Below are positions 23,721-64,000 of a DNA stretch of 64,000 nucleotides, piece by piece. The position numbers were made by a program, and so were the translations under genes. The notes beneath the pieces are model-generated. The model saw only the letters and a program-made list of their open reading frames with translations, was not told the DNA's origin and made no database searches. The stretch is from Rhododendron vialii (taxonomy: Eukaryota > Streptophyta > Magnoliopsida > Ericales > Ericaceae). Position 1 is the stretch's first letter, and the number at the start of each line of letters is the position of its first letter. The stretch spans positions 27,044,501 to 27,108,500 of the forward strand of contig NC_080569.1 in the NCBI RefSeq assembly GCF_030253575.1. Reading direction: 5' to 3'.

Positions 23721-24701
23721 TCAAGGCACGTACTCTGCTTCACTCTCTTGGAACTGGTCATCTTGGTTCTGGTACCCTTCCATTGAGTTCCCATTGTAAT
23801 TCCCATAATAACCCCTGTTGTTGTGATTAACTCTCCTCGAATTCTGATACCCATTTCGGTAATTTTCCTCGCTGTTGATGTCATAGTAGTACCTCCCATT
23901 CTCCAAGAACCTCGTATCGCTCATCCCCTGTTGCTGAGGATTGTAGTTTCTGCCACCGCCGTTGTTGCTTGACGTGGCGGCAGTGGTGGTGTAGCCGCGG
24001 TCCATGAACCTGGTGTCATGACTCATGCCTTCATGTGGGTCACTCACGTATGCTTCCTTGTTATAGTAATTGTTGTTGTCCTCGTTAATGGTGGTGGTGG
24101 GGTAGGATTCTCCGGACTCGGTTTTGTAAGGGAGGTTGTTGGCGGTGTAGGGTGTACCACTGGTGGCGGTAGTGGTGGTGTAGCTCCGGTCCATGAACCT
24201 TTTGTCACTTACGCCTTGTGGGTCATTCACAGCTTCATTCTTGTAGTAATTGTTGTTGCTGCTGCTTGTGGTGGTGGTGTAACGGCCGTCCATGAATCTT
24301 GTGTCACTCACCATCCCTTGGGGGTCACTCACATACGCTTCGCCTTCATTCTTGTAGTAATTGTTGTCGTTGTTGTTGTTGCTTGCGGTGGTGGTGTAGG
24401 GCTCAAAGGATTCGATTTCGGATGGCTGGTTGGTGGCGGCGGCGTGGCGGCCGCCGGAATTCTGGCCATACAGGCCATAGCCGCTTTGGGTATCTGGGAT
24501 GAAATTTGGGTCTTGCTCTCGAACATTGCTTTTGTTGGGCATGGCTTCTTCTACTATTGTTTCTTTTGCATTATTGTTGGTGGGGGTGGCGGTGGCTTTG
24601 TTAAAGAAATAGTAGCTCTCTCTGGCATGGGAATGGAGAGAGGAGGACAAGAGCGCAAAGAAGAGGAGGAAGGGGAAATGTTTGGCTGAGGGAGCCATCA
24701 A
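23721..24701 (-). CDS. E6-like secreted protein (cotton fibre E6 family), 326 aa
   Basis: Single uninterrupted minus-strand ORF. Residues 1-26 are a hydrophobic signal peptide (FPFLLFFALLSSS, likely cut after SHA), so the product is expected in the cell wall. The mature part opens RESYYFFNK and carries about four spaced modules of the form NNNYYKNEA..DPQGxSDTRFMDxxYTTT, then GMSDTRFLENGRYYYD near residues 257-272, the E6 hallmark. Asn-, Tyr-, Ser- and Thr-rich low-complexity linkers join them and the C-terminus is Gly/Asn/Tyr-rich then acidic. Two Met codons open the ORF (24701, 24698); either could start. Known of the family: abundant in cotton fibre and other growing tissues, biochemical role unresolved. 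The Tyr- and Asn-rich modules suggest a structural wall protein (inference). Confidence 0.9.
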   Translation of the reverse strand: MMAPSAKHFPFLLFFALLSSSLHSHARESYYFFNKATATPTNNNAKETIVEEAMPNKSNVREQDPNFIPDTQSGYGLYGQNSGGRHAAATNQPSEIESFEPYTTTASNNNNDNNYYKNEGEAYVSDPQGMVSDTRFMDGRYTTTTSSSNNNYYKNEAVNDPQGVSDKRFMDRSYTTTTATSGTPYTANNLPYKTESGESYPTTTINEDNNNYYNKEAYVSDPHEGMSHDTRFMDRGYTTTAATSSNNGGGRNYNPQQQGMSDTRFLENGRYYYDINSEENYRNGYQNSRRVNHNNRGYYGNYNGNSMEGYQNQDDQFQESEAEYVP

Positions 24702-31371: not shown

Positions 31372-32784
31372 ATGATCAAATGGCCGAAACAAATCACAGC
31401 AACTCTAGTTGAACAGTTGATTAAAGCAGAAAAAGACTTACAGAAAGCTGTACTTATATTTGATGCTGCAACGGGGGAGTACACTAATGGGTTTCGGCAT
31501 GATCTCAGCACTTTCGGTCTAATGATCTCCAGATTCGTCTCTGTGAACCAATTCAGAGCAGCTGAGGATATGCTGAATAGAATGAAGGATGAAAAATGTA
31601 ACATCACAGAAGATATTTTTCTTTCCATTTGTAGAGGTTATGGCCGGGTTCACAAACCGCTTGAGGCGATTAGGGTTTTCCAGAGGATGAAAGAATATGA
31701 TTGTGAACCTACCCACAAATCCTACATTACAGTCTTTTCCATTCTTGCTGATGAAAACCAGTTAAAGTTGGCTTTGAGATTTTATAGGTATATGAGAGAA
31801 TTGGGTATTCCTCCAAGTGTTACTTCCCTCAATGTTTTGATCAAAGCGCTTTGCAAGAACAGTGGAACAATGGATGCTGCTCTTCGAATTTTCCGCGAGA
31901 TGCCTAATCGCGGGTGTATTCCCGATTCCTACACGTATGGTACTTTGATTAATGGGTTGTGTAGATTTGAAAAGATTAGTGAGGCAAAGGAGCTTTTCAT
32001 GGAGATGTCTGATAAAGGTTGTTCACCAACTGTTGTCACCTATACTTCTTTAATTCATGGTTTATGCCAATCAAATAATCTGGACGAGGCTATGGGGCTG
32101 CTTGAAGAGATGAAGAGCAAAGGTATTGAGCCCAATGTGTTTACTTACAGCTCCCTCATGGACGGACTTTGCAAGGGTGGATGCAGTTCACAAGCCATGG
32201 CACTTTTGGAAATAATGCTTAGCAAACGCCATAAGCCTAACATGGTAACATATAGTACTTTAATTCATGGACTCTGTAAAGAGGGAAAACTTAGAGAAGC
32301 TTTAGAGATTCTTGATAGGATGAAGCTACAGGGATTGAAGCCAGATGCAGGATTATACTCCAAAATCATAAATGGCTTTTGTGATGTACACAAGTTCCAG
32401 AAAGCTGCGAATTTCCTTGATGAGATGGTGCTTGAGGGGATCTCACCAAATCGACTAACATGGAGCCTCCATGTTAGAATTCACAATACTGTGGTCCAAG
32501 GCCTTTTATCAGAAATTGATCCAAATCGGGCTTTTCAGTTGTATCTAAGCATGCGTACTAGGGGCCTTTCTGTTGAGGCCAAAACTTTTGATTCTCTTGT
32601 CCATTGTTTTTGCAAGAAAGGAGACCTTCATAAAGCAGCACGCATATTTGAAGAGATGGTGGTTGATGGGTGTATCCCTGATGAGGGAACATGGACTGCT
32701 ATTGTGAGTGGACTTTGGGATCGAAAGAAGGTGCGGGAAGCTGCTGAGTCAATACAGATTGAAGTGATTGGTAATGTTTTTTAG
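31372..32784 (+). CDS. P-class pentatricopeptide repeat protein (At5g46100-like), 470 aa
   Basis: Intronless ORF, usual for plant PPR genes; start ATG at 31372, with an in-frame stop 54 bp upstream. From about residue 45 to 460 it is filled with roughly 12 tandem 35-residue repeats of the P type: examples are TYGTLINGLCRFEKISEAKE, TYTSLIHGLCQSNNLDEAMG, TYSSLMDGLCKGGCSSQAMA and TYSTLIHGLCKEGKLREALE, each ending in a GxxP-like turn. No E, DYW or SMR domain follows. From memory the order and wording match Arabidopsis At5g46100 closely along the whole length. P-class proteins bind organellar RNA to stabilise, process or splice it; a transit peptide is not obvious here (the N-terminus is basic, MIKWPKQITA), and the RNA target is unknown. 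Confidence 0.93.
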   Translation: MIKWPKQITATLVEQLIKAEKDLQKAVLIFDAATGEYTNGFRHDLSTFGLMISRFVSVNQFRAAEDMLNRMKDEKCNITEDIFLSICRGYGRVHKPLEAIRVFQRMKEYDCEPTHKSYITVFSILADENQLKLALRFYRYMRELGIPPSVTSLNVLIKALCKNSGTMDAALRIFREMPNRGCIPDSYTYGTLINGLCRFEKISEAKELFMEMSDKGCSPTVVTYTSLIHGLCQSNNLDEAMGLLEEMKSKGIEPNVFTYSSLMDGLCKGGCSSQAMALLEIMLSKRHKPNMVTYSTLIHGLCKEGKLREALEILDRMKLQGLKPDAGLYSKIINGFCDVHKFQKAANFLDEMVLEGISPNRLTWSLHVRIHNTVVQGLLSEIDPNRAFQLYLSMRTRGLSVEAKTFDSLVHCFCKKGDLHKAARIFEEMVVDGCIPDEGTWTAIVSGLWDRKKVREAAESIQIEVIGNVF

Positions 32785-37900: not shown

Positions 37901-38935
37901 ATGAGCTATGGGGAACACATCGGTTTCGATTCCTTCATGGCCTTCCTTTCTGTCTCCCTCATCGTCCTCGCCGCGGTCCTCTTTTTCCTCTACAAGAAAC
38001 GGCACGTTGATCAACCCGAAGAAAGTACCGTCGATGTTGCTCCGATTACCAAGCTTTGTGCATGTCCATATTCCCTGATGGACGCAGATGCGGCCACGGA
38101 TGGGTTCAACCAGAGGCGGATTATCGGGAAAGGGAGGCTCGGAACTGTCTACGCGGCCTTGTTGCCAAGCGGGGAACTAGTTGCGGTGAAGAGGATTCAT
38201 CCCCGACTAGTTCTGAGCAATGCTGGTTTCGGGTTTTCGTCGACGCTCAAATGGCTCTCTCTAGCCCATCACCCAAACCTAGTCTCCATTCTGGGGTTTT
38301 CCGAGGCGCCAGGTGAGAGGATCATCCTGATGGAGTTCGTAGGTGGCACCATGAGTCTGGACTACTTTCTGAACGATCAAGATTCCAATAAGGCGACTCT
38401 CTTGGACTGGGGCCAGCGCCTGAAGATCGTGGCGGGGGTGGCCAGAGGGGTTGAGTACTTGCATGAAGTAGTGGCACCACCTATAGTCCATGGTTGCATC
38501 AAGCCCTCAAATGTACTAATCGACGTCAAGCGTTGTGCTAGGGTTTGCGATTACGGGCTATCTTTTTTGTTTCCCTTCGATAGGAGAGGGCTCGAGGGGT
38601 ACGTGGACGACGAGTATTGGGTGGAGAGAAGAGGGGCTTCCAAGGAGTGTGATGTCTATGGACTTGGGGTGATCTTGCTTGAGCTTTTGAGTGGGAAGAG
38701 GAATGGAGATGGGAACTTGCTTGTGAGTTGGGCATTGCCTTTGATCAGAGAAATGAAGTTTTGTGAACTCTTGGATTCCAGGCTTGTGACTCCCTCTGAT
38801 GTGAAGCCTCTTGTCAGATTGGCCAAAGTTGCATCAGCTTGTGTTGGGAATTCTAGGAAGAATAGGCCTTCCATTGTTGAAGTGGCAGCAATTTTGAATA
38901 ATGTGGAGATGGGGCTGAGTTCATCTGCTACATGA
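37901..38935 (+). CDS. membrane-anchored receptor-like kinase family protein, predicted pseudokinase, 344 aa
   Basis: Single exon. Residues 12-31 form a hydrophobic transmembrane helix followed by KKR, so the kinase domain should face the cytosol; there is no ectodomain, only about 11 residues before the helix. Kinase motifs: Gly loop IIGKGRLGTVY (74-84), VAVK lysine at 97, LMEF hinge near 143, then HGCIKPSN (197-204) where kinases have HRDLKxxN, DYG (217-219) for DFG, GYVDDEYW for GYxxPEY and SKECDVYGLGVILLELLSGK. The catalytic Asp of HRD is Cys199, so normal phosphotransfer is unlikely although Lys97, Asn204 and Asp217 remain. I recall Arabidopsis At5g23170/At3g51990 as short proteins of this kind; not checked. 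Role unknown; a regulatory partner of active kinases is inference. Confidence 0.87.
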   Translation: MSYGEHIGFDSFMAFLSVSLIVLAAVLFFLYKKRHVDQPEESTVDVAPITKLCACPYSLMDADAATDGFNQRRIIGKGRLGTVYAALLPSGELVAVKRIHPRLVLSNAGFGFSSTLKWLSLAHHPNLVSILGFSEAPGERIILMEFVGGTMSLDYFLNDQDSNKATLLDWGQRLKIVAGVARGVEYLHEVVAPPIVHGCIKPSNVLIDVKRCARVCDYGLSFLFPFDRRGLEGYVDDEYWVERRGASKECDVYGLGVILLELLSGKRNGDGNLLVSWALPLIREMKFCELLDSRLVTPSDVKPLVRLAKVASACVGNSRKNRPSIVEVAAILNNVEMGLSSSAT

Positions 38936-40109: not shown

Positions 40110-40417
40110 TACATCAGGATCAAGGTTTGGAGGCTATGGAAGTGGAGTCGGATTCAGAGGTGGCAGTTTCAATGATCAATGGGGACTGTCCCGAACACTC
40201 CCATGACAGGGTCCTCATCAAAGAATGCAACGCTTTGATGACAGCCACTGGATGCAGTTTGAAACATATCTATAGGGAAGGCAACCAAGCTGTGGATCGT
40301 CTTGCCAACACGGGAGTCGACAACATGGGAGTTGATCAAGAGAAAAGAATGGTGTCTCACGCGATCCCGCAGGATGAGATTTTATCCCTCTGTTGGTGGG
40401 CGGACATGGTCACATGA
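40110..40417 (+). pseudogene. RNase H-like domain fragment
   Basis: An open frame reads GLEAMEVESDSEVAVSMI, then HDRVLIKECNAL and HIYREGNQAVDRLANTG, the C-terminal half of the plant RNase H fold family (Asp-rich strand, later VxREGNxxAD box), ending in a stop at 40417. ACATCAG just before GATCAAGG (near 40118) could be a splice acceptor. The N-terminal half is missing within the window. It may be an exon of a host RNase H-like gene or a LINE remnant; lack of stops favours recent origin or constraint. Confidence 0.6.
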
Positions 40418-40591: not shown

Positions 40592-40856
40592 CTACATCAA
40601 TGCCCTCTTCTGTTGCCTACCATCTGGAATAGCAAAGAGAACAATGGGATTAGAAGGCCCAACGAAGGGCACATCACATCTAAAATAGCCTTTTCTCTCC
40701 AACTGCAGTACCTCCCCATGCTGCAAGTTCCGCATGTTCGAATCCCCCAGCGCTGCAGTCTCCTTTCTCGTATTTTCGTTAAGCACGTCAAGGAAATCCT
40801 CGCCTTCATCGACCTTCTTTTTGGTAATTAGATAGTCAAACTCCACCAGAGAGAGA
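40592..40856 (-). pseudogene. GluRS fragment 3: C-terminal anticodon-domain end
   Basis: Continues fragment 2 with VEFDYLITKKK, then ETAALGDSNMRNL, LERKGYFRCDVPFVG and PIVLFAIPDGR before the stop TAG (40594-40592). These are the usual last 85 residues of plant cytosolic GluRS. Confidence 0.9.
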
Positions 40857-41186
40857 TGTTGGGAATGCCTTGTTTATGCCTTGTATTCTTTAGTCCCACA
40901 TTGGTTAACTATGTTGCTCCTATTTATGTAGCCTATTATAAATAGGGCTTTTGGGGAACTTCTATGGTATCCTTTTGGGGCTGTCATATTGGTGGCCTTT
41001 CTAGACGAGTTACGGATCATAGCCGGCTCTTTGTATCTCTTCTTCACGTTGGTTAGTGAATCCTCTCTCTCCTCGCCCGTGGACGTACCCAATTTGGGGA
41101 ACCACGTATATCTTGTGTCTTTGTGATTTCTTGTTTAGTTTTCAATTTCTCGTTCTTAGCTTGCATTCATAGCGTTCGTTACAACA
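40857..41186 (+). repeat. copia 5' LTR
   Basis: 330 bp, TG..CA. TATA box TATAAATA at 40937-40944 should start the genomic transcript about 30 bp later. Confidence 0.96.
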
Positions 41187-41189
41187 AAC

Positions 41190-41202
41190 TGGTATCAGAG
41201 CC
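41190..41202 (+). promoter_or_regulatory. primer-binding site (initiator tRNA-Met)
   Basis: TGGTATCAGAGCC, complementary to the 3' end of plant initiator tRNA-Met, 3 nt after the LTR as usual for copia elements. Confidence 0.95.
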
Positions 41203-41243
41203 TTAGGTTGCAAAAAACTAGGGTTTCGTTTCCGATTGTGGCT

Positions 41244-44200
41244 ATGGCGGCTAAATTTGAGATTGCGAAGTTTGATGGGCAGAGCAGCAGTTTCAGTCTT
41301 TGGAGAGTAAAGATGAAGGCTCTGCTAACCCAACAAGGATTGCACAAGGTTTTGTTAGGCAAGACTAGTTCTGGAATCAAAGAGGAAGATTGGGATGATA
41401 CGGATGCCAAAGCTCTGAGTTCTATTCAGTTGAGTCTGGCAGATGACGTTCTTCGCGAGGTGGAAGAAGAAACTTCAGCAGCAGGAATTTGGCTGAAGTT
41501 GGAAGGCATATATATGACGAAGTCGCTCACCAACAGGTTATATCTCAAACAACGTCTTTATACGTTTCGTATGCGAGAAGGTATACCTGTTAAAGATCAT
41601 TTAGACGAGTTCAACCGTATTATTATGGATCTGAAAAATATTGATAGTAAAATTGAGGATGAGGACCAAGCCCTAATTTTGCTATGTTCTTTACCACTTT
41701 CGTATGAGCACTTTGTTACAACCCTATTGTATGGCAAAGACACGATATCCATGGAGGATGTTAAGGCCAGCCTATATTCGAAAGAATTGAGGAAAAAAGT
41801 GTCAGGTGAGGGTGATGCCCATGCGGAGGGTTTATTTGTTAGGGGAAGAACAACAGAAAGGGTGGAGTCGAGTAATAGGGGAAGATCCAAGTCATCAGGT
41901 AAGAAGAAGGGAAAGTGTAATTATTGCAAGAAACCCGGGCACTGGAAAAGTGACTGTTTAAAACTCAAAGAGAAGGAAAAAGAAGACCAGAAAGGGGGTA
42001 AAGTAATTGCTGGAATTGCTGAAAGTTCAGATGAGTCAGATAATGTGTTATCAGTTACAGAGGGCGATTCTCGCTCTAATACCGAGTGGATTCTAGATTC
42101 TGGATGTTCATACCATATGTGTCCGCATAGAGAGTGGTTTTCTACTTATGAGGCGGTCAATGGTGGTACAGTTTTGATGGGCAACAACATGGCCTGTAAG
42201 ACTGTTGGTTCAGGAACGATTCAGCTTAGGATGCATGACGGTATTGTTAGGACTTTATCTGAGGTTCGACATGTTCCGGATTTGAAGAAAAATCTTATAT
42301 CCCTGGGTGCTCTTGATTCTCATGGTTGCAAATTCCTCGGTGAAGGTGGAGTTTTGAAAGTCTCAAGGGGTGCATTAGTACTGATGAAGGGTCAAAAGCG
42401 TGGTAACCTTTATACACTCCAGGGCAGTACAGTTTTAGGTGCTGCAGCAACGGTTGCTTCATCCAAGGTTTCAGATTCAGACTTGACTCGTTTGTGGCAT
42501 ATGCGCCTTGGGCATATGAGCGAGAGGGGGATGACGGTTTTGAGCAAACAGGGTTTGCTATGTGGCCAGAAAATTGAGAAGCTGGATTTCTGTGAGCATT
42601 GTGTTTACGGCAAGCAGTGCAGGGTAAAATTCAGTACAGCTGTTCATCGCACCAAAGGCACGGTGGATTATTTTCACTCGGATCTTTGGGGTCCCGCAGA
42701 GGTAACTTCTAAAGGTGGTTTTCGATATTTTATGAGTATTATAGATGATTTCTCTCGTAAAGTTTGGGTGTATATGTTGAAACATAAGAGTGACGCCTTT
42801 AATACATTCAAACAGTTTAAAACTTTGATTGAGAATCAGACTGGTAAGAAAATAAAACGTTTGAGAACTGACAATGGTATGGAGTTTTGTCTTGGTGAGT
42901 TTGATAGGTTCTGCAGTGATGAGGGCATTGTGAGGCATCACACAGTGAGAAAAACCCCTCAGCAGAATGGTGTGGCTGAACGAATGAACAGGACTCTTTT
43001 GGAGAAGGCACGTTGTATGTTGTCCAATTCCGGATTGGGCAAAGAATTTTGGGCTGAAGCCGTTTCCACAACATGCTATTTGGTGAACAGGTCTCCGTCG
43101 ACTGCTATTGAGTGTAAGACTCCGTTTGAGGTATGGTCAGGTCATCCGGCTGATTATTCTGTGTTGCGTGTTTTTGGGTGTCCAGCTTACGCTCATGTCA
43201 ATGAGGGTAAATTGGAGCCACGGGCCAAGAAGTGTATTTTCTTGGGTTATGCAGCAGGTGTCAAAGGGTACAGGTTGTGGTGCTCTGATGATTTGAAGTT
43301 TTTGATCAGTAGGGATGTGACTTTTGATGAAAATTATCTGATTAAGGGGTCTAAGCAGGTTGATGATACAGTTCAGGAACATAGTGTTCCAAAGCAGGTG
43401 GAGTTTATGGGTGAATCTTTCGACTCAGGGAAGAAGCATATTGAGAAGCCAATTGAAGAGGAGTTCAAGAGTTCAGACACAGAGGTTGATGCGTTAGTTG
43501 AGCAACCACGCACTATTGCTAAAGATAGGCCAAGGAGGGAGATTCGGCCTCCTGAAAGGTATTCGGCTTATTCTGAGATGGTGGCCTATGCTTTATCAGT
43601 TGCTGAGACAGTTGAGTATGAAGAGCCTTCCAGCTATACGGAAGCTATTTCGAGCACTGAGTCTGCACAGTGGTTTGTTGCTATGAATGAGGAGATTGAG
43701 TCTCTTCAGAAGAATCAGACATGGGAGTTAGTAGAACCGCTGAAAGGGAAGAGGATTGTTGGATGCAAGTGGATCTTCAAGCGCAAACCAGGTATTCCAG
43801 GGGTAGAAGACGCTCGGTTTAAAGCTCGGCTAGTGGCGAAAGGATACAGCCAGAAGGAGGGTGTTGATTACAATGAGGTATTTTCACCAGTTGTAAAACA
43901 TAGTTCCATTCGCACTATACTTGCTATTGTTGCATGTTATGATCTTGAGTTAGAGCAACTTGATGTCAAAACTGCGTTTTTGCACGGCGAGCTTGAAGAA
44001 CAGATTTATATGCGTCAGCCTGAGGGATTTGTTGTTTCTGGTAAGGAGGATCACGTTTGTTTACTTCGTAAGTCTTTGTATGGCCTCAAACAATCCCCTA
44101 GGCAGTGGTATAAGCGGTTTGATACTTTTATGATAAGCCAGTCATATTCTAGGAGTGAGTATGACAGTTGTGTGTATTTTCGAAAACTTTCAGATGGTTC

Positions 44201-45188
44201 ATTTGTTTATCTACTGTTGTATGTTGATGATATGCTTATTGCTGCCAAGAGTGTATCAGAAATCAACAGGTTGAAACAACAGTTAGGTGGTGAATTTGAG
44301 ATGAAAGATTTGGGTGCAGCAAAACGTATTTTGGGTATGGAGATTTGCAGAGATCGAGTAGCTGGCAAACTATTTTTGAATCAGAAGTCTTATGTTCTTA
44401 AAGTGCTTGAGCGCTTTGCCATGCAGAACTCGAAGCCAGTCAGTACCCCTTTGGCAGCACACTTTCGACTTTCAGCTGAGTTGTCACCACAGTCGGAGGA
44501 TGAGGAGAAGTATATGTCTCAGGTTCCATATTCGTGCGCAGTTGGGAGCCTTATGTACGCCATGGTATGTACTCGTCCTGATATTTCACATGCAGTTAGT
44601 GTCGTTAGTCGTTATATGGGGCGTCCAGGAAAGGCACATTGGGAGGCTGTGAAATGGATACTACGGTATTTGTGCGGAACTGCAGGTGTTGGTCTATTGT
44701 TTGGGATTGTCAATTCTGGTGATCATGCTGTTGGTTATGTTGATTCGGATTTTGCCGGTGACCACGATAAGAGTAGGTCTCTGACAGGTTATGTCTTTAC
44801 TCTGTCCGGAAGTGCCATTAGTTGGAAAGCTACTTTACAGGCTACAGTTGCGCTGTCTACAACAGAAGCGGAGTATATGGCCATTGCTGAAGCTGTGAAG
44901 GAGGCATTGTGGATGAGAGGTTTGCTTTGTGAGCTTGGTCTTACACAGGGTGTGAGTTCAGTATTTTGTGATTCGCAGAGTGCTATACATTTGACTAAAA
45001 ATCTGATGTATCATGAGAGGACCAAGCATATCGATGTCAGGTATCACTTCGTTCGGGATATCATCTCACAGAAGCAAGTTGAGGTGAAGAAAGTGGGTAC
45101 GGCAGATAACCCAGCAGATATGTTGACTAAACCGGTTCCGGTTGCCAAGTTCAAGCATTGCTTGGGCTTGCTTGGTATTTGCAGTTGA
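41244..45188 (+). CDS. copia Gag-Pol polyprotein, 1314 aa
   Basis: First ATG at 41244 (MAAKFEIAKFDG), 58 nt after the LTR; the frame is open slightly further upstream but without ATG. Domains in order: Gag with the YMTKSLTNRLYLKQRL motif, CCHC zinc knuckle CNYCKKPGHWKSDC (about 225-238), aspartic protease WILDSGCS (about 284), GAG pre-integrase LWHMRLGH, integrase core with HSDLWG, DDFS, RTDNGMEF and QQNGVAERMN (about 470-580), reverse transcriptase with SLYGLKQSPRQWY and YVDDM (about 993), and RNase H with VDSDFAG, ALSTTEAEY and KHIDVRYHF, ending LLGICS. All catalytic residues I can check are present and there is no frameshift, so it looks competent. Length equals that of TNT1-type polyproteins. 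Confidence 0.96.
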   Translation: MAAKFEIAKFDGQSSSFSLWRVKMKALLTQQGLHKVLLGKTSSGIKEEDWDDTDAKALSSIQLSLADDVLREVEEETSAAGIWLKLEGIYMTKSLTNRLYLKQRLYTFRMREGIPVKDHLDEFNRIIMDLKNIDSKIEDEDQALILLCSLPLSYEHFVTTLLYGKDTISMEDVKASLYSKELRKKVSGEGDAHAEGLFVRGRTTERVESSNRGRSKSSGKKKGKCNYCKKPGHWKSDCLKLKEKEKEDQKGGKVIAGIAESSDESDNVLSVTEGDSRSNTEWILDSGCSYHMCPHREWFSTYEAVNGGTVLMGNNMACKTVGSGTIQLRMHDGIVRTLSEVRHVPDLKKNLISLGALDSHGCKFLGEGGVLKVSRGALVLMKGQKRGNLYTLQGSTVLGAAATVASSKVSDSDLTRLWHMRLGHMSERGMTVLSKQGLLCGQKIEKLDFCEHCVYGKQCRVKFSTAVHRTKGTVDYFHSDLWGPAEVTSKGGFRYFMSIIDDFSRKVWVYMLKHKSDAFNTFKQFKTLIENQTGKKIKRLRTDNGMEFCLGEFDRFCSDEGIVRHHTVRKTPQQNGVAERMNRTLLEKARCMLSNSGLGKEFWAEAVSTTCYLVNRSPSTAIECKTPFEVWSGHPADYSVLRVFGCPAYAHVNEGKLEPRAKKCIFLGYAAGVKGYRLWCSDDLKFLISRDVTFDENYLIKGSKQVDDTVQEHSVPKQVEFMGESFDSGKKHIEKPIEEEFKSSDTEVDALVEQPRTIAKDRPRREIRPPERYSAYSEMVAYALSVAETVEYEEPSSYTEAISSTESAQWFVAMNEEIESLQKNQTWELVEPLKGKRIVGCKWIFKRKPGIPGVEDARFKARLVAKGYSQKEGVDYNEVFSPVVKHSSIRTILAIVACYDLELEQLDVKTAFLHGELEEQIYMRQPEGFVVSGKEDHVCLLRKSLYGLKQSPRQWYKRFDTFMISQSYSRSEYDSCVYFRKLSDGSFVYLLLYVDDMLIAAKSVSEINRLKQQLGGEFEMKDLGAAKRILGMEICRDRVAGKLFLNQKSYVLKVLERFAMQNSKPVSTPLAAHFRLSAELSPQSEDEEKYMSQVPYSCAVGSLMYAMVCTRPDISHAVSVVSRYMGRPGKAHWEAVKWILRYLCGTAGVGLLFGIVNSGDHAVGYVDSDFAGDHDKSRSLTGYVFTLSGSAISWKATLQATVALSTTEAEYMAIAEAVKEALWMRGLLCELGLTQGVSSVFCDSQSAIHLTKNLMYHERTKHIDVRYHFVRDIISQKQVEVKKVGTADNPADMLTKPVPVAKFKHCLGLLGICS

Positions 45189-45268
45189 TCGCCCCTCGGG
45201 GGCATTTGGCGAGTGAGAGGTTAGAAGGGGATAGCTATATTTGGTGATTTGGTTCGGTGGAATTCAAG

Positions 45269-45282
45269 TCAAGGTGGAGAAT
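45269..45282 (+). promoter_or_regulatory. polypurine tract
   Basis: CAAGGTGGAGAAT directly before the 3' LTR, the plus-strand primer site usual for copia elements. Confidence 0.8.
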
Positions 45283-45612
45283 TGTTGGGAATGCCTTGTT
45301 TATGCCTTGTATTCTTTAGTCCCACATTGGTTAACTATGTTGCTCCTATTTATGTAGCCTATTATAAATAGGGCTTTTGGGGAACTTCTATGGTATCCTT
45401 TTGGGGCTGTCATATTGGTGGCCTTTCTAGACGAGTTACGGATCATAGCCGGCTCTTTGTATCTCTTCTTCACGTTGGTTAGTGAATCCTCTCTCTCCTC
45501 GCCCGTGGACGTACCCAATTTGGGGAACCACGTATATCTTGTGTCTTTGTGATTTCTTGTTTAGTTTTCAATTTCTCGTTCTTAGCTTGCATTCATAGCG
45601 TTCGTTACAACA
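45283..45612 (+). repeat. copia 3' LTR
   Basis: 330 bp, no difference from the 5' LTR seen on reading through. Followed by target copy AGAGA and GluRS coding sequence. Confidence 0.96.
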
Positions 45613-46554
45613 AGAGATTCACCAGCTCGCTCGTCTCGGGTAACCAGGCGAGCTTCAACCTTGTGGTCTTGACGGATCCTTCAAGATGCAAAACCCCAGT
45701 CAACTGCACAATACAATCATTCTCATCCTTCATGATTTCTTTCACTATCGCATTGCCCCAGTCCATTAGAGTTATTTCCTCATCAATCGAGATGGATTTG
45801 GCATCAACAGAGTCGATCCATATCTGCCTTGTGTACGTCGTAGTCTTTTGTCCAGCACCTTCGAACTTCTTATGCCTGGGTATGATGCGGACAAATGGTT
45901 TCTCTGGCCCATCAGTTAGGGTTAACATGACACGTCCTTCTTCAATCACAGCAGTATGTCTGGGACAATAACGATCGATTTCTTTCTTATTTATGGTCCA
46001 GAGTTTATCCCATTCCATGAGATTCAGATTCTTTGAAGCTCCTTGATAAACAACAAACTTTATCAGCGCCTCGATGGTCAGACCTCTCCGCACGATTCCT
46101 TGAACCGTTGGGAAGCGGGGATCATCCCATCCTTCGACCGTTCCATGGTCGACGAACCAAGCAAGCTTTCGCTTGCTCAGTAGGGTATAAACAAAGTTCA
46201 ATCTACTAAACTCGTATATTTCGACATTTGCAAGTCCCATGTCTTCCTGAATCCTATGATACTGAGCATTGCGGTCATGATACTCACTAGACCGCAATGC
46301 ATGCGTCACCCCCGTCAACGCATCCACAATTGGACATGCAAAATCATAAGTTGGATATATCTTGTAACTTGAGCCAACACGGTGGTGAGGAATTGGATTA
46401 CAGCGGTAATAGACCGGATCCCGCAGTGACTTGTTTGGATCCTGCATATCCAACTTACCGCGTAGACAGCACTGCAATCCCCTTTCAGATCCAGCACTCA
46501 TTTCCTTCCACAATTTCATATTCCCCTCTGTGCTGTTATTCCTACACCTTGACT
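45613..46554 (-). pseudogene. GluRS fragment 2: catalytic core and SKRKL motif
   Basis: About 313 codons, continuing exactly where fragment 1 stops (RCRNNS.., KLWKEM). Contains GLQCCLRGK, YPTYDFACP, ALRSSEYHDRNAQY, LLSKRKLAWFV (near 46160-46180), GWDDPRFPTVQGI and the start of the anticodon-binding domain. Ends ETSELVNL at the copia 3' LTR junction. Confidence 0.9.
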
Positions 46555-46798
46555 TAGGGGTGGCAAATTGAACCCAGACCCATTAACAAATCCAGACCCA
46601 TCAACTAAAAAATAGACCCAACCCAACCCATTTATTAGTTGGGTAAGAATGGGTTCAAACCCAGTTAACCCATTATTAGTTGGGTCATAATTGAGCATTA
46701 ATTGGGTCAACTTAAATGACCCAATGGGCAATGAAAGTAACCCACCAAATTCCATCTATTAATTGGTCTCTTTTGCAATTAGAAAGTGGAAGAGTATG

Positions 46799-46990
46799 AC
46801 CCCCCTCTCTCTCTCTCCCCGCTCCCCTCCCCACCCCAGGAGCTCTCTCTCTCCCCCCACCCACCCACCCACCCACCCACCCAATCTTCACTCTCTCCCT
46901 CCCCCAGGAGCTCTCTCTCTCTCTCTCTCTCCGCCCCCCCCCCCCCCCCGCCAATCTTCACTCTCTCTCTCTCTCCCTCTCCCCGCCCCA
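46799..46990. repeat. CT-rich and CCCA-repeat low-complexity tract
   Basis: Alternating CTCTCT runs, a CCCA/CCAC tetramer array (46854-46882) and a C run (46934-46949) inside the hAT element. The long ORFs across it are composition artefacts. Confidence 0.85.
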
Positions 46991-47229
46991 CCCCAACCTC
47001 CAGGAGCATGGCCTTCTCTCTCTTTTATTCAATTGTTTTGTGCTAAATCACACGCGTCCAAAAATATTTTGAATGGTCCGAATTAAAAATCAATTGTGAC
47101 CGGTAATAATTATTTTGACCAGTCAAAATTGAAAACACATCTCATCCATTAATTACGCGAATGGACCCGTGAAATTGTGCTTCGCCGTGAATAAATTTCT
47201 CTCATGGTAGTCCCGCAAAGGGTTTGGAT

Positions 47230-47480
47230 TAAAAAATTGACTTATTTTTTTGTTCTTATTCAAATTTTTTTTTGCATTTTTTTTGTTTTGTGTCATATTT
47301 TTGTGACTTATTAATTTGTTTTGATGAGAGGAATCGGAAAAGTAAAAAAATTTGATCGAAACTTATAATTTTCTGAATAAAGACAAAAAAAAATCAATAA
47401 GACAAAAAAAATTACTTATTCTCGTCTTTTTGAAAAAATTTATGAGTTTCGATCATAATTTTTTTTTACTTTTCTAATTT
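47230..47480. repeat. AT-rich foldback, family B, nested in the hAT element
   Basis: TTGACTTATTTTTTTGTTC..TTTTGTGACTTATTAATTTG..TCGAAACTTATAATTTT and the reverse-complement part AAATTTATGAGTTTCGATCA..; same wording as 58226-58600. Edges approximate. Confidence 0.6.
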
Positions 47481-47675
47481 TCCGATCATAATTTTTAGTA
47501 TATATGTAATTGGGTTAATGGGCGGGTCGGGTTTGCTTTAAAATAAATGGGTCGGGTTGGGTATGGGTAATTAGACTCATAGTTAATGGGTCTAAATGGA
47601 TCAATGACCCATTAAAGACCCAACCCACTAACAACGTACCCAATTTGACCCAAACCCGCCCGTTTGCCACCCCTG

Positions 47676-48575
47676 GCTTGACTCAGTGCCATCCATTCTC
47701 TCTTTCTGCATTTGCTCACGCGGTGTATCATCAACATAAGCCTTCCCTTGAATAATCAACTCCTCAGCCATTTTCATTAGTTTCGGGAAGTAATCAGAAG
47801 TATAAGTTACTTCATCATACTTGATACCCAAAGTTTCTATATCCTTGAGTATATTTACCACAAAGTCATTGCTCTCTTTGGCAGGATTAGTATCATCAAA
47901 GCGCACAATCACTTTCCCTTTGAACTCTTGAGCAAAATACTGGTTTAATAAGGCTGCTTTAGAATGTCCAATGTGAAGGTAACCGCTGGGTTCTGGTGCA
48001 AAACGCAAGCGAACTTTACCGACGACGGCATTCTTGAGATCGAGCACTCCTTTTCCGTTGCCACCAACATGCCTGTTGGCTCGCTCTTTCCCTTTTACTT
48101 TAGCCGCAATCGACTTTCCCAAACCGAGATCAGTTATAGTATTGTTTTTGATCAGGACATCAGCATATTGCAATGATAATAAGTTGAACCACCGCACTAG
48201 GTTAGGGAATTTCTTTGACTTCCTCAGACTTTCCCATCTCTGCCCACTTCCTGCAAGGCCAACCCAGATTGCTATGTCTACAACAGAGATAAAATCTCCA
48301 GCCAGATAGGTACGCTTGAGCAAATACGCATCGGCGAGACTACAACACGCTGCCTCCTCAAGTGCATACCTAATAAGCAATTCATCAATCTGGCAAGCAG
48401 CAGCTGATTCCAAGTCACGCGCGTACCTACAAAAATCATCAGTCTGGCAAGCGTCAAAAGCCTTGCGTAAAGGAATCTTGAGAATGCTTGCCGTCCCAAC
48501 CGCTAGATTCTGCAGAAACTTTTGAGCTTCCAGTTCATGCCGCGCCGGACAAGGGGAGGCTTCCACCGCTACCAT
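47676..48575 (-). pseudogene. GluRS fragment 1: GST-like domain and HIGH motif
   Basis: 300 codons from ATG 48575 (MVAVEASPCP) to the hAT insertion. Residues about 75-150 hold the GST-C-like part (YLLKRTYLAGDFISVVDIAIW, RWESLRKSKK), the domain eukaryotic GluRS uses for protein contacts. RFAPEPSGYLHIGHSKAALL near residue 195 is the class I ATP-binding signature. The fragment stops within QKERMDGTES. Read through, the frame enters the hAT element and ends at once. Confidence 0.9.
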
Positions 48576-48669
48576 GTTTGGGAACGAACAAAGTCTCTTA
48601 TCGGAGATGATCGAGAGGCCGGAGAAAGAATAGAGTGATGGTTTCGGTAACTGTGTGTGTGCGCTCGCG

Positions 48670-48678
48670 TTTTATATC
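48670..48678 (-). promoter_or_regulatory. possible TATA box of the GluRS gene
   Basis: Minus strand GATATAAAA, about 95 bp before ATG 48575. It suggests a native promoter rather than a processed retrocopy. Confidence 0.5.
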
Positions 48679-48798
48679 TCGATTAGGTTAGGGTTTTGTG
48701 GCTTCTCCCCTTGGAGAAGACGCAAAGAAAGAGGCGGTTCCAACGCTGCATCGTGGCCGTTCCGAGAGAAGTTCAATTTCCAATTTATGGGTGGGTGA

Positions 48799-57635: not shown

Positions 57636-58099
57636 ATGACATGGTGCAGTGATTCCCAAGACCCAATTAGTTCCGTCCAATTATTAAATTCCAAAGAAAA
57701 TCCCATCATAACATGCCCATCCTGTGGCCACAATATCCAGCTACAAGATCATGAGGTACTATATTTGATTTTTAGCAATTCTGGACATCGTGTCTCTGCC
57801 GCTATTTAAAACCTTGATTAGAATATTCTTTTCTTGTTTCATAATTTTTTTTTTCTCCTTCCGATGAGTAATCGTGTGCGTAAATTTGTCATGTTATCGA
57901 TCGAATTAGGGGGGAATTCAAGATTTGCCGGGGCTTCCGGCGGGTGTGAAGTTCGATCCATCTGACCTAGAAATTCTTGAACATTTGGAGGCGAAGGTTT
58001 GTTTTGATCCCCGTAAGATTCATCCACTAATAGATGAATTTATTCCAACACTTGAGGGGGAAAATGGAATTTGCTACACACATCCAGAAAAGCTACCAG
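57636..58099 (+). CDS. NAC transcription factor, SND2/NAC073-like, first two exons
   Basis: Exon 1 57636-57755 (40 codons, [27 protein letters not shown]) and exon 2 57910-58099 (63 codons plus 1 nt). Splice sites GAG|GTACT, ATTAG|GGG and CCAG|GTAAAT fit. Residues 44-54 read [11 protein letters not shown], then [23 protein letters not shown] and [17 protein letters not shown] subdomains A and B in the wording of the SND2/NAC073/NAC010 branch, which also shares the MTWC start and CPSCGH box. Known of that branch: control of secondary-wall genes in fibres. Subdomains C-E, which contact DNA, are not found in the next 5.9 kb; they are either past the edge after a transposon-filled intron or lost. 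Leu in DPSDLE replaces the usual Gln/Glu. Confidence 0.85.
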
Positions 58100-58225: not shown

Positions 58226-58600
58226 TGCTTGTTTTGGCTCAATAATTGATTTTTTTTCGATATTAATATTTTTTTTTGTATTTGTTTATTTTGCTTCAAA
58301 CTTTTGTGACTCATTGATTCAAAGAAATAAAAAATTATGATTGAAACTCATAATTTTTTGAATAAAAACAAAAATAAGCCAAAAAGACAGAATTTTTGAC
58401 TTATTTTTGTCTTTATTGAAAAAATGTGAGTTTTGATCATAATTTTTTACCTTGTCAATCCTCTTGACAAGACGAATTAATAAGTCACAAAAATTTGACG
58501 TAAAAGTAACAAATGCGAATGTTGTTGAATAAAGATAAGAATGTTGTTGAATAAAGATAAAAAATAAACTTATTTTAACTTACTGAGCCAAAACAAGCCT
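58226..58600. repeat. AT-rich foldback, family B, best copy
   Basis: Left GCTTGTTTTGGCTCAATAA..TTTTGTGACTCATTGATTC and right GAATTAATAAGTCACAAAA..TTACTGAGCCAAAACAAGC are inverted over about 180 bp each. Near the right end GAATGTTGTTGAATAAAGATA is duplicated (58518-58560). It begins about 125 bp after NAC exon 2. Confidence 0.75.
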
Positions 58601-60338: not shown

Positions 60339-63300
60339 TTTTTTTTTTTTGATCAGCAAACGAAACATTTTATATTGCTCAAAAGGGTACATTGAGAAAG
60401 GGCATCCTACCATAAAGAGCTTGGATACTCCGGAAAAGAAAGACATCCAACAGATAGTTGGATAAACACCTTAGACTACATTACAATTTTAATTTCCGGA
60501 TTCCATCTAGAAAAACCTTAAAATCCTCCACAGAATAGACTTTGATGTTGAATTTCGCCTTCATCCACATAGCTATCCTAGTTTTGACTAAATCCCCCAC
60601 CTCCCAAGGTTGTTTAGAAGAGTTGTTGAAGACGAAGTCATTTCGAACCAGCCAGATAGACCATAATGTGGCGTAGAAGCAAGACTCCCAAATGTGCTTC
60701 TCGAGGTTGCGAAACCCATTATCAAACCACCAACTAGCCAAAATCGGAACAGAGGGTGGGCATACCCACTTGACCTTCCACCAATCCAAAATTAGAGACC
60801 ACACAATCTAAGAAAAATGGCAATGGATGAACAGATGATGATGGGTTTCCAAATGCAGTAGACAAAGAGGACACAAAGCTGAGTGGATCTCACCGATAAT
60901 GTTCCTACTCAAGAGAAGTGACCTGGTTGCCACCTTCTCTTTGACAGCCATCCATGCAAAGATTTCCACTTTTGGAGAGCAACAGTTTTTCCATAGAGAA
61001 CCCAGCAAAGCATTATTAGGATAAGAGAGTTGTTCCCATTTCCCATATGCTGATTTAACGTTGAAATTACCATCTGCCGACCATCTCCATTGTAAAAAGT
61101 CAGGCCTAGTTGGGTTTAGAGTCACCCCTTGAATTCTCTGAATCAAATTATCCAACTCTTGCCGTTCCCGCCCAAAAGCCCTTCTTCGGAACAACAACTC
61201 CCAGCAACCCCCCTCAGCCTCGCTCCTCATATCACTAATCAAAGCCATCTTTTGATCTGATAGAATGAACACTCTTGGATAGACTTCTTTCAACGGGGTC
61301 TCTCCCAACCAGGAGTGTTCCCAAAACAAAGTTGCAGTACCCGAATTAACTTTGATACTAAAGCTCTCTCTGACGGAATATCCCAGATGAGAAGATGAAT
61401 CCTCCAATGAGCAAATATCCGTCCAGACTTTTGACATAGAGCCTGAACCAGGGGAGAAAGGAAGCCAGCAATTTGCATCCAGACCATACTTTCCTTTGAT
61501 AACTCTCGCCCAAAGAGAGTCTTTGTTGTTGTCGAATCTCCACCACCACTTGGCCAAGAGTGCTAGGTTTTGTTGAAGCAACCTCTTCACCCCCAAACCC
61601 CCATTGTCTTTGTTCTTTGCTATCTCATCCCATTTAACCAAGTGCATCTTCTTTTTGTCAGCCGTATCACCCAAAAAAAAATTTCTTTGTAGTTTCTCCA
61701 GTTTCTTTGCTACTGCAACAGGCATTTTAAACAATGACATAAAGTAAATAGGCACATTTCTGGTGTTGGAGATAATAAGAGTCAACTTCCCCCCCGACGA
61801 GATACATCGGCTTCTCCAAACACTCAAGAGCTTTTCAGTCCGTTCGATAACAGGATCCCAGATCTTAATCCTTCCAGGGTTTGCACCTAACGGCAATCCG
61901 AGGTACTTAATAGGGAGAAATTCCACTTTGCAACCCATTATTTCAGCCAACAATGCCACATCTTCATGAGGGACATTCACTCCACTAAGAGAACTCTTAG
62001 AGAAATTGATTTTGAGGCCTGACATCAGTTGAAAGCACCTTAGGATTCTTTTGATATTAGCCATCTCCTCCGGATCGTTGTTGCAGAAGAGAATTGTGTC
62101 ATCCGCAAACTGTAAGTGCGAGATAGAGACCCCGTTGCGCCCTAATTTAGTACCTTTGATTATGTTACTCTCCTTAGCTCTTTCTAGCATTAAGTTGAGA
62201 CCCTCAGCTGCTATATTAAAGAGAAAGGGTGATAAGGGGTCGCCTTGCCTGAGTCCCTTCTGCATATGAAATTCCTTAGAAGCTGAGCCGTTGATCAAAA
62301 TGGACATAGACCCAGAAGAGACACACTCCAAAATCCATCCACGCCACCTATCCCCAAATCCAAACCTTGCTAGCATATCAATCAAAAAGTTCCAATTGAC
62401 ACAGTCGTACGCCCTTTGGAAGTCAAGTTTTAGGATAAGACCTCCACGAGCACTGTGTTTCCAGCTATGGATAGCCTCATTGGCTATAAGAACACCATCC
62501 AGAATTTGCTTCCCTCCCACAAATGCAGCTTGAGCTTCCCCAATAATAGATGACATATGCACTTTGATTCTATTTGCCAACACTTTAAAAAGTACCTTGT
62601 AGACCCATCCCACCATACTAATAGGCCTGTAGTCATAGAAAGACACGAGGCAAGCTACCTTGGGAATCAAGGCGACAAAGGTGGAATTGATACCTTTTGT
62701 AAGCTTCCCGTTGGCGTGGAACTCCGAGAAGAATTGAACGATCGTCTCTTTCATAAAGTTCCAACCTTTATTAACAAAAGAAAAATTGAAACCGTCGGGG
62801 CCAGGAGCTCTAAGGTTGCTACATCCTTGCACAGCTGCTAGAATTTCCTTCTCCTCAAAAAAGTTCTCAAGATGTAAAGCTATCTCTGAGCTTAGTTTCC
62901 TAGGGAACAAACCTTCCAGCAATGGTCTAGTCTTCCTTTCCTCAGAAAAGTTGTTTCGGAAAAAATTTGAGGCAGCTTCCTTTATTTGTTCTGGCTCGAC
63001 TACCATCACTCCAGCAACGTTAACAGATCCCACCAAATTCCTTTTGAATCTGTTGTTTGCCGTAATTTGAAAAAACCTGGTGTTTCTATCACCCAACCGA
63101 AGCCACTTAACTCTAGATTTTTGTTTCCAGAGAGACTCCGAGAGCTTTGAGAGTCTCCAAAATTCTGACTTTGCTTGGCATCTCTGCGCCTTTTTCTCTT
63201 CATTCAATGGTCCATTTTCAGCTAGGATATCAAAATGATGAAGTTTGACTTCGGAGTCTTGAAGAGCAATATTGATATCCCCAAAAACCTCTTTATTCCA

Positions 63301-64000
63301 AACCCTCAAGCTGTCTTTGATGGCTCTCAGCTTCTGTACAATAATAAAACCAGCCCACCCATCCACTTTAAACTCCTCCCAAGCCTGTTTTGCTAGCTTC
63401 ATACAGTTTGGATCATCCAGCCATATGTCTAGAAATCTGAAAGGTTTAGGCCCCCAGTCCCTATTATCATCATGAAGCATAATAGGGCAGTGGTCTGAAA
63501 TTGGCCTTGGAAGACCCCATTGAAGGATCTTAAACCTGTCAAGAAAAGGTTGAGACAACAAAAATCTATCCAAACGACTATGAATAGCAAGGTTTTGATA
63601 GTTTGACCATGTGAACTTCCTGCCCAGCATAGGAATATCCAAAAGTTCCGAGGAATTACAGAAGTCCCTAAAATCCCTCATACCTCTCTCCACCCTCAAG
63701 CACCCAACTCTTTCATTGATCTCCAAAATTTCATTGAAATCACCCCCAATACACCACGGAACCTGGGAGCTAGTTTTAAGCACCAACAAAGCCTCCCAGA
63801 GTTCTCTACAAGAGACCACTAAGTTAGGAGCATAGATATTAACCAAAGTACAGGGGAAATCAATGATTGACCCTTATACCAAAATGAAAGATCTATGCAC
63901 GACCACCGCAGATGCTTTAAAGAAAGCATCATTCCAAACAGTAATCAGGCCCCCCGATGCACCGACAGAAATAGAACATGCAAACTCGAAATTGCTAGCC
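60339..64000 (-). mobile_element. L1-type LINE, 3' part, runs off the right edge
   Basis: On the minus strand ORF2 is followed by a roughly 130-bp 3' UTR and a tail seen as 12 T on the plus strand (60339-60350). The 5' part with ORF1 is beyond the window, so the target duplication cannot be checked. Confidence 0.93.
60481..64000 (-). pseudogene. LINE ORF2 (endonuclease, reverse transcriptase, zinc-binding domain) with two in-frame stops
   Basis: The frame reads SISVGASGGLITVWN near the right edge, a TAA at 63876-63874, then 1012 residues open (63846-60811), a TAG at 60810-60808, then about 107 more residues to the natural stop at 60481. Visible domains: APE endonuclease (GGDFNEI near residue 35, SDHCPIML near 117), RT (DYRPISMVGWVYK, AAFVGGKQILDG, KLDFQRAYD, QGDPLSPFLFN, FADD near 575-580), and a C-terminal zinc-binding RT domain (LCPLCLLHLETHHHLFIHC) just before the TAG. 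The frame is unbroken apart from the two stops, so inactivation looks recent. Confidence 0.92.

Follow-up and report, generated by a model that had tools for sequence, protein, structure and literature searches.

The window analysed here, a stretch of 64,000 nucleotides from Rhododendron vialii (C13:27044501-27108500), contains on its minus strand a coding sequence for glutamyl-tRNA synthetase (GluRS) that is split into three pieces by two inserts, a non-autonomous hAT-type element and a Ty1/copia long terminal repeat (LTR) retrotransposon. The parts of the locus are the following.

47676-48575, minus strand: GluRS piece 1, with the leader, the GST-like domain and the start of the catalytic domain including HIGH
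45613-46554, minus strand: GluRS piece 2, with the remaining catalytic domain including SKRKL and the first anticodon-binding domain
40592-40856, minus strand: GluRS piece 3, the second anticodon-binding domain, with 87 whole C-terminal residues and the stop codon at 40592-40594
46555-47675, no strand assigned: non-autonomous hAT-type element of 1121 bp, with 13-bp termini TAGGGGTGGCAAA and CAGGGGTGGCAAA matching at 12 of 13 positions
46547-46554, no strand assigned: hAT target duplication, low-coordinate copy CCTTGACT
47676-47683, no strand assigned: hAT target duplication, high-coordinate copy GCTTGACT
40857-45612, plus strand: Ty1/copia LTR retrotransposon, with LTRs at 40857-41186 and 45283-45612 and a gag-pol frame at 41208-45188 (1326 amino acids)
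40852-40856, no strand assigned: copia target duplication AGAGA, low-coordinate copy
45613-45617, no strand assigned: copia target duplication AGAGA, high-coordinate copy

When the three pieces are joined and one target-site copy is removed for each insert, they form a single frame of 697 codons with zero stops. This agrees with an earlier note on this DNA, which had described three fragments in one frame with both class I motifs. The hAT junction falls in codon 298, between HIGH at residue 201 and SKRKL at residue 424, so that the element separates the two motifs as the note had stated. The copia element is inserted near codon 610 and does cut off the C-terminus, although the severed part comprises 87 whole residues and not the 86 given there. 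Piece 1 matches the Pfam families GST_C, from residue 81, and tRNA-synt_1c, piece 2 matches tRNA-synt_1c and tRNA-synt_1c_C, and piece 3 matches tRNA-synt_1c_C2; residues 1-56 match no Pfam family, even with the threshold relaxed to E 1. The domain set of a cytosolic-type GluRS (GST-like, GlxRS catalytic with HIGH and SKRKL, anticodon-binding) is complete and in order over the joined pieces. The closest solved structures for each piece are the GluRS chains 7wrs and 7wai, which we take to be of the eukaryotic type. The window copy shares their domain order and class I motifs but, unlike them, is split by two inserts and provides no complete enzyme. Piece 1 retains 37 of the 40 positions invariant in 7wrs, 7wai and 5zdk, and piece 2 retains 54 of the 63 invariant in 7wrs, 7wai and 2rd2. 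A frame of 697 codons in which the domains of a single known enzyme follow each other in the proper order is not a product of chance. An assembly misjoin is an unlikely cause of the split, since both inserts are complete at each end and each is flanked by its own target duplication.

The hAT-type insert has the features of its class, an 8-bp target duplication and short terminal inverted repeats. The duplication is imperfect, with seven of eight bases agreeing between its copies, and the element contains no open frame of 150 amino acids or more. Of 4291 candidate places in the genome 40 were scored, and among these 40 are 21 other copies matching over positions 1-1120 with 85-92% identity, as well as one partial copy (404-1120) with 98% identity; judged from these matches, the insert is a member of an abundant family. 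A foldback repeat within the element (47337-47474) resembles a repeat at 58321-58513 (75% over 195 bp), downstream of a NAC-like exon described below, and partly matches the flank of a GluRS gene on contig C6 (L014 8430-8776). In the second insert, integrase lies ahead of reverse transcriptase in gag-pol, the LTRs end in TG..CA and the target duplication is 5 bp long, as in Ty1/copia elements. The primer site 3' of its 5' LTR resembles what we take to be the tRNA-Met one.

Both insertions look young, as the earlier note had proposed from the pieces still being open. The two copia LTRs show no differences over 330 bp, which limits their divergence K to at most 0.009 (95%). The three open GluRS pieces cap the neutral divergence accumulated after the first hit at about 0.009-0.017, assuming constraint until that hit. 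At 2.5e-9, a slow substitution rate, the copia insertion would be at most 1.8 million years (My) old and the cap would correspond to 3.4-6.9 My. At the faster rate of 1.3e-8, quoted in a passage of PMC3890553, the corresponding values are at most 0.35 My and 0.7-1.3 My. The proposal that the hAT element is the older of the two draws solely on target duplications matching at 7/8 against 5/5 positions, which do not date the order of the insertions directly.

The frame of piece 1 reads on into the hAT element and stops after 315 amino acids. The first ATG of piece 2, at 46519, opens a frame of 304 amino acids ending within the copia LTR, and neither product contains a complete catalytic domain. 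As predicted from these frames, a full-length enzyme is not translatable from the locus unless both inserts are removed. Removal by splicing, which would leave a working GluRS gene, is hardly credible. Around the hAT element 26 of 210 GT..AG pairs preserve the frame; scored with splice-site matrices, the donor of the best pair falls among the top 4% of sites in the window and its acceptor among the top 7%. Around the copia element, however, the frame is preserved by only 8 of 377 pairs, the best of which has a poor acceptor (top 33%), and splicing would need to take out some 4.8 kb of antisense sequence. With the best pairs, residues are lost or gained.

The genome (532.6 Mb, 13 contigs) was searched with pieces 1 and 2 at a match threshold of E 0.001. 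Each piece matches four loci, namely the window and one locus on each of contigs C5, C6 and C7; within the C5, C6 and C7 loci, tblastn also located the counterpart of piece 3. A search with piece 2 found no relatives in the viral_contigs or genome_contigs collections. The C6 gene has six exons, GT-AG introns and an intact 719-residue frame, which bears out the expectation of the earlier note that a second GluRS copy exists elsewhere. The C7 paralogue has four exons and an open frame of 551 residues; it lacks the entire GST-like domain and carries HLGH in place of HIGH. The exon ends of both genes were picked by hand from tblastn matches and GT-AG sites, and both products have the synthetase domains. 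The two further loci are placed as follows.

L016 4829-7207 (C7:38014828-38017206), minus strand: C7 GluRS paralogue
L015 3711-7425: C5 GluRS duplicate, introns kept; the stops in three stretches of exon number 2, 0 and 1

On these stops, we class the C5 copy as a conventional decayed pseudogene. We expect the intact C6 gene, with its six exons, to be the one on which the plant depends.

The window copy differs from all three in its structure. Seven of seven exon junctions compared (four of five from C6, three of three from C7) are closed in register; they represent five distinct intron positions, two of which are common to C6 and C7. Introns are present in C6, C7 and C5, and the window copy is without one at every position compared. 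The start of the window copy resembles the leader exon of C7. Homology extends from 48754 in the 5' untranslated region (UTR) to about 40475 in the 3' UTR and then stops, these limits being putative and drawn from sequence comparison.

48586-48754, minus strand: putative retrocopied 5' UTR, 83% identical to the sequence upstream of the C7 gene
48688-48696, minus strand: telo-box AAACCCTAA, common to the window copy and C7
40475-40591, minus strand: putative retrocopied 3' UTR, homologous to the 3' UTRs of C6 and C5
40448-40454, minus strand: A7 tract just past the 3' UTR homology, possibly a weak poly(A) remnant

An RNA-derived origin is indicated mainly by the closed introns and by homology that is limited at the UTRs, and the status of the window copy, which is sister to C7, as a processed retrocopy is strongly supported by these comparisons. 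The fetched surroundings of C5, C6 and C7 have no colinear match in the window; the other matches are scattered, and we take them for dispersed repeats.

This structure bears directly on the proposal of the earlier note that the window holds a broken essential gene or a haplotype-specific null. A genuine cytosolic GluRS gene that was recently inactivated would be expected to show young inserts in a full-length frame encoding the enzyme's domains, as this locus does. The window copy, however, lacks the introns of C6, C7 and C5, and an intact 719-residue frame is present on C6. That explanation is already contradicted and we give it almost no weight. As the locus is an intron-free retrocopy and not the ordinary intron-bearing cytosolic gene, no argument from a lethal null or from haplotypes is needed.

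A duplicate made at the DNA level, with its own promoter retained and its introns lost later through recombination with cDNA, would account for the homology to C7 on the 5' side of the ATG, which continues for about 180 bp and takes in the telo-box. Against it stand the closure of all five intron positions compared, the transcript-like ends of the homology on both sides and C7 flanks with no colinear match in the window; we regard such a history as improbable. The telo-box is probably located within the 5' UTR or close to the start site, and a passage in PMC3022908 places telo-boxes near the transcription starts of translation-related genes. An own promoter of the window copy, composed of the telo-box and TATAAAA, was considered and dropped, as the telo-box also occurs in C7 and TATAAAA is not conserved.

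Two side observations concern the retrocopy and its surroundings. On the opposite strand, just past the 3' end of the retrocopy, 40130-40414 holds what is left of an RNase H-like domain (RVT_3). A LINE-type reverse transcriptase frame of 1012 amino acids (RVT_1, zf-RVT) occupies 60808-63846 on the minus strand and is of a type that could be a source of retroposition.

Between the window copy and C7, synonymous divergence (dS) is 0.222 and non-synonymous divergence (dN) 0.053 over 537 codons. Changes were assigned to branches with C6 as the outgroup over 537 codons from window residue 159 onward, leaving 15 differences without a branch. The window branch carries 36 synonymous and 29 non-synonymous changes (omega ~0.23; binomial p 9e-9 against neutrality), and the C7 branch 26 and 28 (omega ~0.31; p 3e-5). 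When agreement of C5 and C6 is required, the corresponding ratios are 30:28 for the window and 23:29 for C7 (538 codons; 30 differences unplaced).

Taken alone, the omega values and the open frame do not tell whether the constraint acted before or after retroposition. They are compatible with a processed copy that arose from a lost or unassembled C7-like parent not long before the insertions and was never functional, the signal of selection being that of the parent. The mismatch between the 3' UTRs of C7 and the window copy also speaks for such a history. A fourth intron-bearing GluRS locus was, however, not found with pieces 1 and 2, and the GluRS frame itself contains a duplication that is difficult to reconcile with a short life of the intronless copy.

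48345-48452, minus strand: in-frame tandem duplication of two 54-nucleotide units, residues 42-59 and 60-77

The score of this duplication was equalled by none of 2000 shuffles and by none of 1862 other coding-sequence windows. Each unit can be aligned with C6 across the joined ends of exons 2 and 3. A duplication that crosses this fused junction can only have formed once the intron was gone; even so, 8 of the 47 bases aligned between its units differ. This corresponds to 0.097 per lineage (95% 0.040-0.198), a value from a sample of 47 bases in a less constrained part of the gene, and it is similar to the synonymous divergence of the window branch (0.10). The probability that a neutral frame stays open through a divergence of 0.10 is 3e-8 with indels at 5% of substitutions and 2e-4 for stops alone; through 0.04, the lower limit, it is 9e-4 with indels at the same proportion. 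We consider a copy that was never functional unlikely, while giving it more weight than the other alternatives. Because the diverged in-frame duplication postdates intron loss, we infer that the retrocopy itself was under selection before the insertions.

Several observations weigh against a retrocopy of the C7 lineage that was maintained by selection. The C6 exon-1/exon-2 junction lies outside the comparison, as the start of the window copy does not match exon 1 of C6. The 3' UTR matches C6 and C5 but not C7, which makes the present C7 gene an imperfect parent. The A tract beyond the 3' UTR is just 7 long. No target duplication was found around the retrocopy, where the best match was equalled in 567 of 1000 shuffles, and an earlier test gave the same result; the duplication may have eroded. 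Piece 2 retains 88 of the 116 residues common to 7wrs and 7wai, so that 28 have changed. The GST-like region is more relaxed, with omega 0.585 against C6 (133 codons). At the lower limit of the duplication divergence the survival argument is weak when stops alone are counted (P 0.034), and some of the branch under constraint may be that of a parent with introns, since lost.

In the history that we favour, and hold to be probable, a retrocopy of the C7 lineage was selected as an intronless gene and then split by the hAT and copia elements. A spliced C7-lineage transcript, still encoding the GST-like domain, was reverse transcribed, by a presumed enzyme, and inserted on C13, as the exactly closed introns and the homology from UTR to UTR show. 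The intronless copy would have persisted under purifying selection, as suggested by omega, the open frame and the diverged in-frame duplication. The recent entry of the non-autonomous hAT element at codon 298 and of the copia element near codon 610 is directly seen in the sequence. The six-exon C6 gene would carry the GluRS function for the plant. The window locus is now expected to be a recently dead retrogene, with C6 supplying the essential function. More tentatively, and with more doubt than confidence on our side, the retrogene may have been selected for much of its life while C7 lost its GST-like domain, perhaps as the only GST-bearing enzyme of that lineage, before two independent transposons ended it; intact alleles could possibly still segregate.

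The remainder of the window contains features unrelated to GluRS. An exon at 57922-58098 is similar to the beginning of a NAC domain (PF02365, E 0.00028, below the curated cut-off), and a GT comes after it. Uninterrupted frames encode a pentatricopeptide-repeat protein at 31372-32784 (470 amino acids) and a protein kinase at 37901-38935 (344 amino acids). Two long frames, at 23721-24701 and 24018-24689, overlap on opposite strands. One is Asn/Tyr-rich and repetitive and has no Pfam match, whereas the antisense frame is Gly/Val-rich and is probably a mirror of the repeats.

The locus can be compared with several described systems. In a passage of PMC7935947, processed pseudogenes are a minority among plant pseudogenes, 17.4% of Arabidopsis retrocopies are quoted as retro-pseudogenes and many keep open frames. 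Like the plant retrogenes treated there, the window copy is intronless and has a multi-exon parent family on another chromosome. Unlike them, it has an A tract of only seven bases and no target duplication that could be detected, and it is broken by two separate recent transposons in a frame otherwise without a visible lesion. Incomplete extra copies of aminoacyl-tRNA synthetases are common, with 14 in Arabidopsis and 7 in rice according to section 3.2 of PMC7564348. The window holds an extra, incomplete synthetase copy of this kind; none of the 14 or 7 copies is listed there as GluRS, and in the window one can see directly what broke the gene up. Among nine silenced genes that PMC3890553 describes in Oryza minuta is a redundant copy for which an LTR insertion is held responsible. 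The window copy is likewise a redundant copy disrupted by an LTR element; the Oryza minuta case involves a polyploid subgenome copy and one element, and the window a retrocopy and two. A literature search on plant GluRS gene structure and copy number, retrotransposon-hit synthetase genes and synthetase telo-boxes returned nothing on point beyond PMC7564348, from which we do not claim absence from print.

As C6 carries an intact frame, ideas about essential synthetases are unchanged by this locus, and the GST-less GluRS paralogue on C7 is a puzzle that it leaves. The window locus is an unusually legible example of a known phenomenon: a single locus in which the origin of a gene by retroposition, what would have been its life under selection and the cause of its death, two inserts of which one can be dated by its LTRs, may all be read.

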